Of a stretch of DNA of 64,000 nucleotides, positions 5,976 to 53,930 are shown piece after piece (position 1 is the stretch's first letter; each line of letters starts with the position of its first letter). Source of the DNA: an uncultured Bacteroidota bacterium (GTDB lineage: Bacteria; Bacteroidota; Bacteroidia; Flavobacteriales; Flavobacteriaceae); assembly GCA_903902795.1 (NCBI GenBank), contig CAIUWH010000034.1:1-64000 (forward strand). Reading direction: 5' to 3'. Under the pieces are notes generated by a model, which was not told the origin of the DNA, made no database searches, and worked only from the letters and a program-made list of their open reading frames with translations. A program made the translations under genes and the position numbers.

Positions 5976-6032
5976 TCCAAAAGTTTTGTTTTAGAAGCTC
6001 ATCCAGCCCTTTGTTTCACGTTTTTTTAAATC

Positions 6033-6150
6033 AATTGGTTGTACTAAGTTGTACTAAGAGCTTCCGTTGGTCGCTTTAGTCCAACAAGTACAGCGCAATC
6101 GCTTTGGCAAAAAGCGTTTCACTTCGGTCTGGGCTAGGGCAACCGATGTA
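6033..6150. repeat. Dispersed intergenic repeat, copy 1 (no palindrome insert)
   Basis: caattggttgtactaag...gcttccgttggtcgctttagt...cacttcggtctgggctagggcaa aligns to 26683-26830. Confidence 0.8.
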
Positions 6151-25191: not shown

Positions 25192-25211
25192 CCTGTCTGC
25201 TGATAGGCAGG
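25192..25211. repeat. 20-bp palindromic unit CCTGTCTGCTGATAGGCAGG
   Basis: Near-palindrome interrupting taattcgtgaa|ttcgt; empty relative at 6391-6410. Confidence 0.85.
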
Positions 25212-26129: not shown

Positions 26130-26621
26130 ATGAACATTTCGGTGGCAACCCAAGAGCAATTACCAATCATCCGTGACTTGGCGTTCCGAATTTGGCCTGT
26201 TACTTACGGACACATATTGTCGAAAGATCAATTCGATTATATGATGGAAATGATGTACAGTTTGTCTTCTTTAGAAAAGCAATTAGTACATCCAAAACCG
26301 TTTTTATTGGTTGAAGACGAAGGTCAATACATCGGTTTTGCATCCTATGAAATCAATTGGGAACATACCTCCAAAACCAAAATTCACAAACTCTATGTTT
26401 TGCCCAGCATTCAGGGGAAAGGCATCGGAAAAGCACTGATTCAGTACCTTCGTGACATCGCTCAAAAAGCCGAAAATACGATACTAGTTCTAACGGTAAA
26501 TCGGTTCAATTCCGCCAAAGAATTCTACCTCAAACAAGGATTCCACATCGTAGAAGAAAAGCAATTCCAAATCGGAAACGGCTACATCATGGACGATTAT
26601 GTGATGGAGTTGCCTATTTAA
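26130..26621 (+). CDS. GNAT family N-acetyltransferase
   Basis: KIHKLYVLPSIQGKGIGKALIQYL acetyl-CoA binding motif. Confidence 0.9.
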   Translation: MNISVATQEQLPIIRDLAFRIWPVTYGHILSKDQFDYMMEMMYSLSSLEKQLVHPKPFLLVEDEGQYIGFASYEINWEHTSKTKIHKLYVLPSIQGKGIGKALIQYLRDIAQKAENTILVLTVNRFNSAKEFYLKQGFHIVEEKQFQIGNGYIMDDYVMELPI

Positions 26622-26682
26622 CTCAGCGTCATTGCGAGGCACGAAGCAATCTCCAGCTTTACGTTTCAAGTTTTTCAAGCCT

Positions 26683-26830
26683 CAATTGGTTCTACTAAGC
26701 CCAACTAAGCGCTTCCGTTGGTCGCGTTAGTTCGGCAAGTGCCACGCAATTGTTGCTTCAAAAAGCTTTCCACTTCAATCTGGCCTGCCTGCCGGTAGGC
26801 AGGGCTAAGGCAATCTCTTCGTACAAGAAA
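26683..26830. repeat. Dispersed intergenic repeat, copy 2 (contains the 20-bp palindrome)
   Basis: Aligns to 6033-6150 apart from an inserted cctgcctgccggtaggcagg. Confidence 0.8.
26784..26803. repeat. 20-bp palindromic unit CCTGCCTGCCGGTAGGCAGG
   Basis: Near-perfect palindrome interrupting the repeat at 26683-26830. Confidence 0.9.
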
Positions 26831-26942: not shown

Positions 26943-28931
26943 CTAAATCCGTGTTTGCAACACTTTAATCTCATCGCGTAATTTTGCCGCTTGCATAAAA
27001 TCTAAATCTTTGGCCGCTTTTTCCATGGCTTTTCTAGCATCACGGATTTTCTTTTCTATTTCGGGTTTGGATAAGTATAAGCTCTCAGGTTCAGCAGCTT
27101 TTAGTGCTTGGTTTTCGTAGTATTGCGTAGAAACTGAGTTGTTACCTAACGCACTTCCCAAACTTTTATTTAAGGCTTTTGGTTGTAAATTATGTTTCGT
27201 ATTGTAAGCCATTTGCTTTTCACGACGATACGTCGTTTCATCCATCGTTTTTTGCATGCTGTTGGTGATTTTATCAGCGTATAAAATTGCTTTTCCATTT
27301 ACATTTCGCGCAGCACGACCTACGGTTTGTGTTAACGATCGATGACTTCTCAAAAATCCTTCTTTATCCGCATCTAAAATGGCAACCAATGAAACTTCGG
27401 GTAAATCCAGTCCTTCGCGCAGTAAGTTTACACCAATCAATACATCGAACAATCCTTTTCGCAAATCTTGCATGATTTCAACGCGTTCTAATGTATCGAC
27501 ATCGGAGTGGATGTAACGACATCTTATGGAAACTTTCGTCAAATATTTCGTCAATTCTTCCGCCATACGTTTGGTCAATGTTGTGACTAAAACGCGCTCG
27601 TCCACTTCACATCGCAGCTGAATTTCTTCAATTAAATCGTCAATTTGATTCAAACTCGGACGCACTTCTATAATTGGATCTAATAAGCCAGTTGGTCGAA
27701 TGACTTGCTCCACATAAATTCCTTCACTCTTTTCCAATTCGTAATCCGCCGGTGTAGCCGAAACATAAATGACTTGGTTTTGCATGCCTTCGAATTCCTC
27801 AAACTTCAACGGTCGATTGTCCATCGCAGCAGGTAATCGGAATCCGTATTCGACAAGATTTTCCTTCCGACTCCGATCGCCGCCGTACATAGCATGCACT
27901 TGCGAAATCGTAACGTGACTTTCATCCACTACCATCAAAAAATCGTCCGGAAAATAATCCAATAAACAAAATGGCCGCGTTCCCGGAAGTCGTCGATCCA
28001 AATAGCGGGAATAATTTTCAATTCCGGAGCAATAGCCCAATTCACGTATCATTTCCAAATCGAAGTTAGTACGTTCTTCCAATCGTTTGGCTTCTAAATG
28101 CTTGCCAATTTCTTTAAAGTAATCGACTTGTTTCACCAAATCCTGCTGAATATCCCAAATGGCTGCTTGCAACACATCAGGTGATGTTACAAACATATTC
28201 GCGGGATAAATCGTCAGTTTTTCATATTTTTCTAACACCTTGGACGAACGAGCGTCAAAAGCTTCAATTTCTTCAATTTCATCACCAAAAAAATGAACAC
28301 GAAACGGTTCGTCAGCATAACTAGGGAAAATTTCAACCGTATCACCTTTGATTCTAAAAGTTCCAGGAGTAAATTCGGCTTCCGTTCTCGAATACAAACT
28401 TTGCACCAATCGGTGTAGTAATTTGGTTCGGGAAATCACTTCGTTTTTTAATATCGAAATGACGTTCTTTTGAAACTCAACCGGGTTTCCAATTCCATAC
28501 AAACACGAAACAGAAGCCACAACTAACACGTCACGTCGACCTGAAAGGAGAGCTGAGGTCGTGCTCAAGCGCAGTTTTTCTAACTCTTCGTTAATGGACA
28601 AATCTTTTTCAATGTAGGTTCCGGTTACCGGAATATACGCTTCAGGTTGGTAGTAGTCGTAGTATGAAACAAAATATTGCACCGAATTATTAGGGAAAAA
28701 CTGCTTAAATTCAGAGTATAATTGAGCAGCTAGTGTTTTGTTATGCGCTAAAACCAACGTTGGTTTTTCAACCTTTTCAATCACATTGGCCACCGTAAAC
28801 GTTTTTCCAGAACCTGTAACTCCGAGAAGCGTTTGGTATTTTTCACCATTGCGAATTCCGGCCGCTAATTTTTCAATGGCTTGCGGTTGATCTCCTGTAG
28901 GTTGGTATTCGGATACGACTTGGAATTTCAT
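26943..28931 (-). CDS. uvrB: Excinuclease ABC subunit UvrB
   Basis: GVTGSGKTFTVANVI, YYDYYQPEAYIP, DESHVTISQ, C-terminal UVR motif. Confidence 0.97.
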   Translation of the reverse strand: MKFQVVSEYQPTGDQPQAIEKLAAGIRNGEKYQTLLGVTGSGKTFTVANVIEKVEKPTLVLAHNKTLAAQLYSEFKQFFPNNSVQYFVSYYDYYQPEAYIPVTGTYIEKDLSINEELEKLRLSTTSALLSGRRDVLVVASVSCLYGIGNPVEFQKNVISILKNEVISRTKLLHRLVQSLYSRTEAEFTPGTFRIKGDTVEIFPSYADEPFRVHFFGDEIEEIEAFDARSSKVLEKYEKLTIYPANMFVTSPDVLQAAIWDIQQDLVKQVDYFKEIGKHLEAKRLEERTNFDLEMIRELGYCSGIENYSRYLDRRLPGTRPFCLLDYFPDDFLMVVDESHVTISQVHAMYGGDRSRKENLVEYGFRLPAAMDNRPLKFEEFEGMQNQVIYVSATPADYELEKSEGIYVEQVIRPTGLLDPIIEVRPSLNQIDDLIEEIQLRCEVDERVLVTTLTKRMAEELTKYLTKVSIRCRYIHSDVDTLERVEIMQDLRKGLFDVLIGVNLLREGLDLPEVSLVAILDADKEGFLRSHRSLTQTVGRAARNVNGKAILYADKITNSMQKTMDETTYRREKQMAYNTKHNLQPKALNKSLGSALGNNSVSTQYYENQALKAAEPESLYLSKPEIEKKIRDARKAMEKAAKDLDFMQAAKLRDEIKVLQTRI

Positions 28932-36286: not shown

Positions 36287-37543
36287 ATGTCCGTATTTCC
36301 AAGAAGTTTTTGTAGTTTAGTTTTCTCCCTTTTATTTAGTGTAACGATTTCATTCGCACAGAATGATACTTTAGTTAAACAACCTGATTACCTTTTTGCT
36401 GCGGTTGAATATTCAATTGGAAAAACATCTAAGGCGAATGTCGATTTTCCTGAATTACGCCCGCAAAACGGATTGCTATTTAGCATCGGAACAACCAATA
36501 ATAACCCGCAAATAGAATGGGCGCGACAACTTAATTATCCCGAAACTGGGCTTACATTTTCGTACGTTGACATGGGAAATTCTGCGCAGTTGGGTCAGAC
36601 GATTTCACTTATTCCCTTCATTGATTTCAAAGTTTTTTCGGGATGGACGAATCGAATGAATTGTAAAATCGGACTCGGAGCTTCTTATTTTAACACAATA
36701 TACGATGAAGTGGACAATCCAAATAATAAAGCCATTTCTACTTCTTTTACATGGGCGTTTCGTTCAAACCTATATTATTCCATGTTTCAAAACCAAGACT
36801 ATAATTTTAAATTAGGAATCGGTTATTTTCACAATTCCAACGGACATTTGCGATTGCCAAATCAAGGATTGAATACGTTTTTGCTTAGTGCTTATTCACA
36901 ATTTAATTGGAAAAAATCAGAACCTTCAATCGAAAGTAGTGAGTCGCAAATTCCAAATTCAAGACAAACTCAACGGTATTTTTCGAGCCGAGTCGGTTTA
37001 GGTCAGAAAGTCTTGTCAAAATACAGCACTGAAAAAAAAGAGGTGTATGCGTTTGCGGTTTCTACAGGAAAGGTAATCAACAAAACGTTCAAATATGGAT
37101 ACGGAATGTATTATCGTTTTTACGAGGACTATTATGACTACATCAAAGACGACGAAAAATTAGTGCGAGAATTGTATCCTGAATTTAGAGATAAGCCCGT
37201 TTTGTATGCGTCGAATTTCGGACTTTTCGCTAGTGGAGAATTGCTACTAAGTCATGTTGGAATTGAATTTGAACTGGGTTTGAATCTCTATAAGCCAGCC
37301 TACAAAATTGATTGGCAGATTAATGAAGAAAAATATGTCGAAGGAGTGTATCAGTTAGGCGAATTAAATTGGTACTACCAATTAAAGAAGACTGTTTCTT
37401 CACGATTAGGTGCAAAATGGTACGCGATTAGTACTAACAAATCGCCGAGACATAATATTTTTTTAGGCGCATACATTAACGCCAACTTTGGTCAAGCCGA
37501 TTTTACCGAACTGACTTTAGGTTACGTGTATGCCTTGAAATAG
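36287..37543 (+). CDS. Outer-membrane beta-barrel, possibly acyloxyacyl hydrolase / PagL-like
   Basis: Signal peptide; alternating barrel pattern; family assignment from general resemblance only. Confidence 0.5.
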   Translation: MSVFPRSFCSLVFSLLFSVTISFAQNDTLVKQPDYLFAAVEYSIGKTSKANVDFPELRPQNGLLFSIGTTNNNPQIEWARQLNYPETGLTFSYVDMGNSAQLGQTISLIPFIDFKVFSGWTNRMNCKIGLGASYFNTIYDEVDNPNNKAISTSFTWAFRSNLYYSMFQNQDYNFKLGIGYFHNSNGHLRLPNQGLNTFLLSAYSQFNWKKSEPSIESSESQIPNSRQTQRYFSSRVGLGQKVLSKYSTEKKEVYAFAVSTGKVINKTFKYGYGMYYRFYEDYYDYIKDDEKLVRELYPEFRDKPVLYASNFGLFASGELLLSHVGIEFELGLNLYKPAYKIDWQINEEKYVEGVYQLGELNWYYQLKKTVSSRLGAKWYAISTNKSPRHNIFLGAYINANFGQADFTELTLGYVYALK

Positions 37544-37545
37544 AA

Positions 37546-37767
37546 GACTTCTTAGAAGGTTAGAGTTTTAGACTACTTAGATTCTTGTGAATCCTTAAAA
37601 TCTAACGTGTCTAACTTTTCTAAGAAGTCTAAAAGGTCTAAGAAATTTAAAAAGACTTCTTAGAAGGTTAGAATTTTAGACTACTTAGATTCTTGTGAAT
37701 CCTTAAAATCTAACGTGTCTAACTTTTCTAAGAAGTCTAAATGGTCTAAAAGGTCTAAGAAGTCTAC
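37546..37767. repeat. 108-bp tandem duplication, each unit an imperfect hairpin
   Basis: gacttcttagaaggttaga...tctaacttttctaagaagtc at 37546 and again at 37654. Confidence 0.95.
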
Positions 37768-46085: not shown

Positions 46086-46105
46086 CCTGCCTGCCGTCAG
46101 GCAGG
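46086..46105. repeat. 20-bp palindromic unit CCTGCCTGCCGTCAGGCAGG
   Basis: Near-perfect palindrome flanked by tctttgtgac / tttgtggg. Confidence 0.85.
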
Positions 46106-53810: not shown

Positions 53811-53930
53811 AGCCCCGACCTGCCTGTCGGCAGACAGGTTGAGCAAGTATCCTTTTTTTATTCAAGCCATTTCGACTGCGCTCGATGTGACAAAAAAGAT
53901 ACTGCGTAAAGCGGGAATAAGGTTTACAAA
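53811..53930. repeat. Composite intergenic hairpin element (AGCCCCGA...TATCCTTTTTT...AAAAAAGATACTGCGTAAAGCGGGAATAAGG) carrying palindrome insert and TTTCGACTGCGCTCGATGTGAC loop
   Basis: agtatcctttttt pairs with aaaaaagatact; inserted sequences visible. Confidence 0.7.
53819..53838. repeat. 20-bp palindromic unit CCTGCCTGTCGGCAGACAGG
   Basis: Palindrome interrupting agccccga|ttgagc. Confidence 0.85.

Follow-up and report, generated by a model that had tools for sequence, protein, structure and literature searches.

A 20-bp palindrome, apparently among the smallest units of mobile DNA

Introduction

Very small mobile repeats are known already from the cyanobacteria, whose small dispersed repeats (SDR) have units that Elhai et al. 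2008 (doi 10.1101/gr.074336.107) are said to have put at about 20-27 bp. These repeats are dispersed and judged mobile (PMC3116915, PMC2884548). REP and REPIN elements, in turn, are hairpins of 20-40 bp, present in many copies and mostly intergenic, that are associated with RAYT transposases. RAYT genes always lie between two copies of their REP (PMC2817692), and two features of sequence mark such a system, a guide tetranucleotide and a cognate gene with the repeat on either side (PMC2817692, PMC8266576). The wider class of Y1/HUH enzymes takes single-stranded hairpins as its substrate and leaves no target duplication (PMC8266576, PMC6006769). To these may be added the CGTC-tagged palindromic repeats (2013), short stem-loops of several phyla including Bacteroidetes with a CGTC end and an unpaired CCA-like tail (PMC3733652), the Rickettsia palindromic elements (RPE), reported from Rickettsia with a length of about 150 bp (PMC10969869), and the MITEs and IS200/IS605-derived elements, which are non-autonomous mobile units.

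Here we describe a complete palindrome of 20 bp, hereafter P (summary form CCTGCCTGCCGGYAGGCAGG, consensus form CCTGCCTGCCGGCAGGCAGG), found in a 64,000-nucleotide stretch of contig C34 (the window) of an uncultured member of the Flavobacteriaceae, the genome of which comprises 2.77 Mb in 120 contigs. P resembles SDR in a length of ~20-27 bp, in its many loci and in its clean filled and empty sites; SDR were reported for cyanobacteria, whereas P is a complete palindrome identical across many phyla. Like REP and REPIN it is a small hairpin in many, mostly intergenic copies, but it occurs as single units with the same sequence in unrelated phyla, its unit is exactly the palindrome, its flanks vary and show no guide GTAG (GTGG) 5' of it outside the stem, and neither in its own genome nor in P-positive Flavobacterium was a cognate RAYT gene found between inverted copies of P. 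With the CGTC-tagged repeats it shares the form of a short stem-loop common to several phyla, and neither a terminal CGTC nor an unpaired CCA tail is seen in P or its flanks. RPE are likewise palindromic and likewise lie in frame within protein genes, but P is 20 bp long and inhabits other phyla. MITEs and IS200/IS605-derived elements exceed P several-fold in length, and their ends correspond to a transposase of the same genome, of which none was found for P; IS200/IS605 elements leave no target duplication, and the target-site duplication of DDE-type MITEs is absent from the coding and tRNA filled/empty pairs of P. A search of the literature returned nothing for the sequence of P or for shorter cores, in agreement with the original prediction from this DNA, which knew of no named element with it; nor were its complete palindromy, its identity across phyla or its tRNA-arm and loop targets found in the literature searched.

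Copies in the window and in the genome

The copy of P that first drew attention, at 26784-26803, makes nine of the ten possible pairs and one G.T pair, while the consensus folds into an 8-bp stem with a CCGG loop at -8.0 kcal/mol (DNA parameters). The original prediction of a 20-bp palindrome at this place without a target-site duplication was borne out to the letter. Its host is a Flavo-1 (RF01705) repeat lying between a convergent GNAT acetyltransferase gene (26130-26621, + strand) and uvrB (26943-28931, - strand), and the point of insertion falls between CAATCTGG and GCTA. P itself lies outside the Flavo-1 model and interrupts some copies at two fixed points. The matching empty site that had been proposed some 20 kb away does differ by just these 20 bp; it is, however, a diverged paralogous repeat (the stretches 6031-6135 and 26682-26786 are copies of one repeat with 77% identity) and not an allele. 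Three further copies of P, beyond the original prediction, bring the window to four against 0.07 expected (Table 1), and a scan with up to 3 mismatches returned 8 strand-matches, a number equalled in none of 100 shuffles.

Flavo-1, although filed as an sRNA, acts in this genome (76 matches, with window copies at 296-400 and 26646-26790) as a dispersed, interruptible repeat, which agrees with the remark that Flavo-1 matches disregard the direction of transcription (PMC9723704). Elsewhere in the window a tandem pair of 108-bp units, 94% identical, occupies 37544-37759 and follows immediately on the gene at 36287-37543.

Table 1. Copies of P and associated features in the window, junction phrases in its own genome and P-bearing tRNA fragments elsewhere; a slash marks the point of insertion.
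Feature	Position	Strand	Remarks
P, CCTGCCTGCCGGTAGGCAGG	26784..26803	.	8-bp stem incl. one G.T pair, CCGG loop; DNA hairpin -7.0 kcal/mol; class A' site
Flavo-1 (RF01705) repeat carrying P near its own 5' end	26646..26790	-	Rfam match, 47.2 bits
Flavo-1-like paralogous repeat without P	5996..6139	-	Rfam 40.6 bits, just under the 42-bit cut-off; junction near 6132/6133
Diverged copy of P, CCTGTCTGCTGATAGGCAGG	25192..25211	.	inside phrase AATTCGTGAA/TTCGT
Copy of P, CCTGCCTGCCGTCAGGCAGG	46086..46105	.	inside phrase TTTGCGTCTTTGTGAC/TTTGTGG; class B
Copy of P, asymmetric subfamily CCTGCCTGTCGGCAGACAGG	53819..53838	.	inside TTAGCCCCGA/TTGAG; class A
P junction phrase TAGCCCNGA/TTGNAG			16 own-genome sites
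P junction phrase TTTGCGNC/TTTGCGG			10 own-genome sites
P junction phrase CACAGA/TTACACAG			6 own-genome sites
P junction phrase TAGC/CCNGATTG			4 own-genome sites, including the window site 26784-26803
P junction phrase TTCGTGAA/TTCGTGG			3 own-genome sites
Other P junctions			15 own-genome sites
P-bearing tRNA-Arg fragments			Flavobacterium G156, G052, G106
P-bearing tRNA-Leu fragments			Flavobacterium G128, G080
P-bearing tRNA fragments, other phyla			L179, L382, L383

Across the whole genome, the scan with mismatches and alignment of flanks that had been suggested for P yielded about 53 copies: at up to 2 mismatches there were 53/54 strand-matches, against 5/5 for a control with the pattern reversed. 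The exact size of the unit emerged from a register test, in which a unit with variable ends was cut from each of the 53 copies and the joined 22-mer sought at other places on both strands of a 1.1-Mb portion of the genome. Removal of exactly 20 bp produced an empty-site match (at most 3 of 22 positions mismatched) for 32 of the 53, whereas a unit one base shorter or longer (19 or 21 bp) gave 0-4 matches and shifted 20-bp units gave fewer the further they lay from the true register.

These copies, which are mutated and form subfamilies, occupy fixed junctions within small repeat phrases of several unrelated kinds (Table 1). One and the same junction can hold asymmetric variants such as CCTGCCTGTCGGCAGACAGG in either orientation, so that the copies of a phrase were hit independently, at least in part; with many sites in the same few phrases, some copies of P may nonetheless have spread along with the phrase. 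Arrays of imperfect short words (GTTCAGTGTTCAATGTTCAATG, CTTTGCGTCTTTGCGG, ACACAGATTACACAGATT) also recur in the spacers of this genome, for instance upstream of P at L002, and are frequent hosts of P.

Filled and empty sites in other genomes

A filled site in a protein gene comes from a sister Flavobacterium (G106), in which a PF01797 (Y1_Tnp) gene is split by P and its frame is restored when the flanks are joined. Seven homologues of ~80% DNA identity read uninterrupted through GGTTAGA/TGTTTTT, the empty site of this insertion, such that 20 bp have been added between an A and a T with neither duplication nor deletion. A second set of pairs comes from tRNA genes, where P lies in the D or T arm of a partial duplicate tRNA beside a GIY-YIG gene and the intact neighbouring tRNA provides the exact empty site. 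Eight such same-locus pairs were counted, with up to 45 and 22 exact flanking bases, and ARAGORN confirmed the intact tRNAs at all of their loci; G052 was left out of the count as its intact tRNA copy runs off the contig. G080 has a tRNA fragment with two units of P, and on the two sides of the second unit 45 and 22 bases are identical to the intact tRNA. The notion that these might be functional tRNAs interrupted by P was rejected, the P-bearing copies being partial duplicates, mostly by GIY-YIG genes, with an intact tRNA alongside.

The intact tRNAs and the seven uninterrupted homologues represent the ancestral state, and the direction is therefore insertion and not excision. Of the discrete inserting or excising unit originally proposed, it is the inserting half that is strongly supported. 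At the level of the sequences compared, P was inserted, in either orientation, without duplicating or deleting a base. A chance alignment had also been envisaged, in which orthologues would always carry P and no other flanks would pair cleanly; instead, orthologous sites in related species lack P and clean 20-bp pairs are many. The spacer orthologous to that of the copy at 25192-25211, for one, is without P in eight related sequences, although its words differ, so that it documents the absence of P and not an exact empty site.

Standalone GIY-YIG (PF01541) genes of ~80-100 codons are themselves found within tRNA-Arg, -Leu and -Lys genes of Flavobacterium and Patescibacteria (L460-L464, L179, L382, L427), where one end of the tRNA is duplicated and an intact copy left; several may also follow one another in tandem (G007:C24, L466, L427). 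They resemble independent mobile elements that target tRNAs.

Distribution among genomes and phyla

Exact P was present in 18 of 200 Flavobacterium genomes, by a pattern with Y at position 13, and in 28 of 397 good Bacteroidota genomes (7%), spread over 27 of 181 genera; the reversed pattern was found in none of either set. In GTDB at least 120 stretches contain the 20-mer without a mismatch, where 0.002-3.8 would be expected by composition, and the phyla among the matches listed are Patescibacteria (many classes), Omnitrophota, Nitrospirota, Elusimicrobiota, Planctomycetota, Verrucomicrobiota, Chloroflexota and Bacteroidota. In 50 of these listed genomes P numbered 1-92 copies at up to 1 mismatch (reversed control, zero), an Uhrbacteria genome of 1.0 Mb carrying 54. 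Bearers include the named isolates Winogradskyella echinorum, Longitalea luteola, Aquiflexum lacus, Flavivirga and Salegentibacter, as well as two Flavobacterium genomes in a single contig (G128, G202); a plasmid search with a filled site found no match. Judged from these genomes, P has spread within and between genomes of many phyla. Replication slippage, one of the mechanisms offered in the original prediction, cannot account for the same 20-mer in so many of them.

Target sites

With both strands counted, the base preceding P is A in 44-76% of cases and T in 2-9%. Junctions of the form A/T make up 23 of 80 GTDB sites (29%, with 8% expected; p=1e-7) and 26 of 54 sites in the own genome (48%; p=2e-12). 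Overall, P has a modest preference for loops. Arms of an inverted repeat of at least 8 bp surround 4% of GTDB sites, compared with 0.4% of control positions, and none in the own genome, while direct repeats of at least 7 accompany 10-17% of sites and 4-5% of controls. Individual sites include the centres of inverted repeats (L362, L366, L233), the loop of P itself, with one unit nested inside another (L182, L240), and positions between repeated words (L212, L245, L421).

Open reading frames are avoided, with P in them at 15 of 110 sites compared with 59% of nearby control positions. P has no stop in any frame and is translated as LPAGRQ, PACRQAG or CLPAGR; though most copies lie outside genes, it is read through in long open frames of Patescibacteria and other genes (L183, L185, L198, L219, L386, L387). 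Read by eye, three of these (L183, L185, L198) seem to need 21 extra bases and not 20. At such in-frame Patescibacteria sites the additional base may be one duplicated G, a 1-bp duplication, or may reflect selection for frame.

Mechanism and alternative explanations

We favour, with a probability of roughly 0.6, the reading that the palindrome alone constitutes a non-autonomous mobile unit, exactly 20 bp long, which moves as a folded single strand by means of an enzyme acting in trans. The unit would travel as a hairpin, with its 8-bp stem and CCGG loop as the recognised feature, and the enzyme would join it into single-stranded DNA, for instance the lagging-strand template. The comparisons show that insertion takes place between two bases, preferably at A/T junctions and at loops or unpaired positions of folding sequences: the D and T arms of tRNAs, the centres of inverted repeats, the loop of P and the fixed points of Flavo-1. 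Joining of single strands would leave no target duplication and would favour loops, loops being single-stranded. Given that the 20-mer has stayed identical from phylum to phylum, the putative enzyme is probably common to them or has been passed on widely. Inspection of the genes between close pairs of P revealed no gene in common.

Two families of enzyme present themselves as movers, and both are improbable. Were P a REP moved by a RAYT (TnpA_REP) or another Y1 HUH transposase of the genome, as the original prediction found plausible, its mover would belong to the known class of enzymes that work on single-stranded hairpins without target duplication; moreover, of 28 P-bearing genomes drawn from many phyla, 25 contain a match to PF01797, and a common variant of P contains GGTAGG. 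This is nevertheless unlikely, as the resident IS200-like Y1 transposase gene (L082, C28:20003-23359) adjoins no P and has flanking hairpins of its own, CTCCAGCTTCAGCTGGAG and CCTCCAACTGAAGTTGGAGG, unrelated to P, while in P-positive Flavobacterium 15 of 16 Y1 loci lack an adjoining P and the exception is the gene that P interrupts. In the neighbourhood of 30 Y1 genes from other genomes P occurred at the level of chance (3 against 1.36 expected; p=0.16), G158 (100% complete) has P and no PF01797 match, and PF01797 shows no general association with P (8 of 12 Flavobacterium positives and 13 of 21 in the search of relatives); the GTAG that is required outside the stem is absent from P. A little less probable still is a role for the small GIY-YIG nucleases of tRNA genes, either as movers of P or as triggers of its insertion, for example at their own cut sites. 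In five Flavobacterium genomes no more than 60 bp separate P from a standalone GIY-YIG gene, P being always in a duplicated tRNA fragment, an arrangement repeated at L179 and L382, and these 5 of 57 listed Flavobacterium copies compare with 0.003 expected under uniformity or 0.03 when only spacers are counted. Yet the own genome, with dozens of copies of P, has no tRNA-linked gene among the GIY-YIG loci examined, counts of PF01541 genes do not set P-positive apart from P-negative Flavobacterium, L383 has a P-bearing tRNA fragment and no GIY-YIG gene, and a spare copy of a tRNA may simply be a harmless and hairpin-rich target.

The most serious competitor, although an unlikely one, grants that P is mobile and attributes the excess in tRNA fragments and repeats to selection, insertions there being harmless or breaking a defective tRNA, and not to targeting. 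The scarcity of P in open reading frames fits such selection, which leaves unexplained why the same arm, and nearly the same base, is hit in tRNAs of different amino acids and phyla, and why junctions in the repeat phrases are fixed. Far less credible, and already unfavoured, is that P is a 20-bp scar of excision, in which the two CCTGCCTGCC ends of a larger transposon have been joined. A perfect inverted repeat without a spacer does resemble two joined ends. Most cut-and-paste elements, however, leave a target duplication; no trace of one is seen here, the half-sites CCTGCCTG and CAGGCAGG are confined in the window to copies of P, and none of the loci inspected has pairs of P around a transposase gene. 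That P is an artefact of sequencing or assembly, such as an adapter-like palindrome, can be almost wholly discounted: many matches do come from metagenome assemblies, but P is also present in the single-contig Flavobacterium genomes and named isolates, is confined to 7% of good Bacteroidota genomes, and has copies that are mutated and fall into subfamilies.

Conclusions

P apparently ranks among the smallest pieces of mobile DNA observed so far. Taken a step further, and more tentatively than the reading of a non-autonomous hairpin, at somewhat less than even odds, P may be transposable in its own right and identical across many phyla, with an enzyme other than RAYT, possibly one tied to the tRNA-inserted GIY-YIG nucleases, carrying it into loops as a folded single strand; there is a real chance that such a putative mobiliser makes it more than a variant of the known small repeats. 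P would set a new lower size for mobile DNA with clean empty sites, in a protein gene and in copies of tRNAs, with the same unit active in phyla that have few other mobile elements in common, and it accounts for in-frame LPAGRQ and PACRQAG peptides in proteins of Patescibacteria. The hunt for the enzyme becomes a defined task, with one substrate sequence, known targets and dozens of P-rich and P-free sister genomes. If the bolder proposal is true, no other mobile DNA unit known from bacteria would be as small or as widely shared as P.
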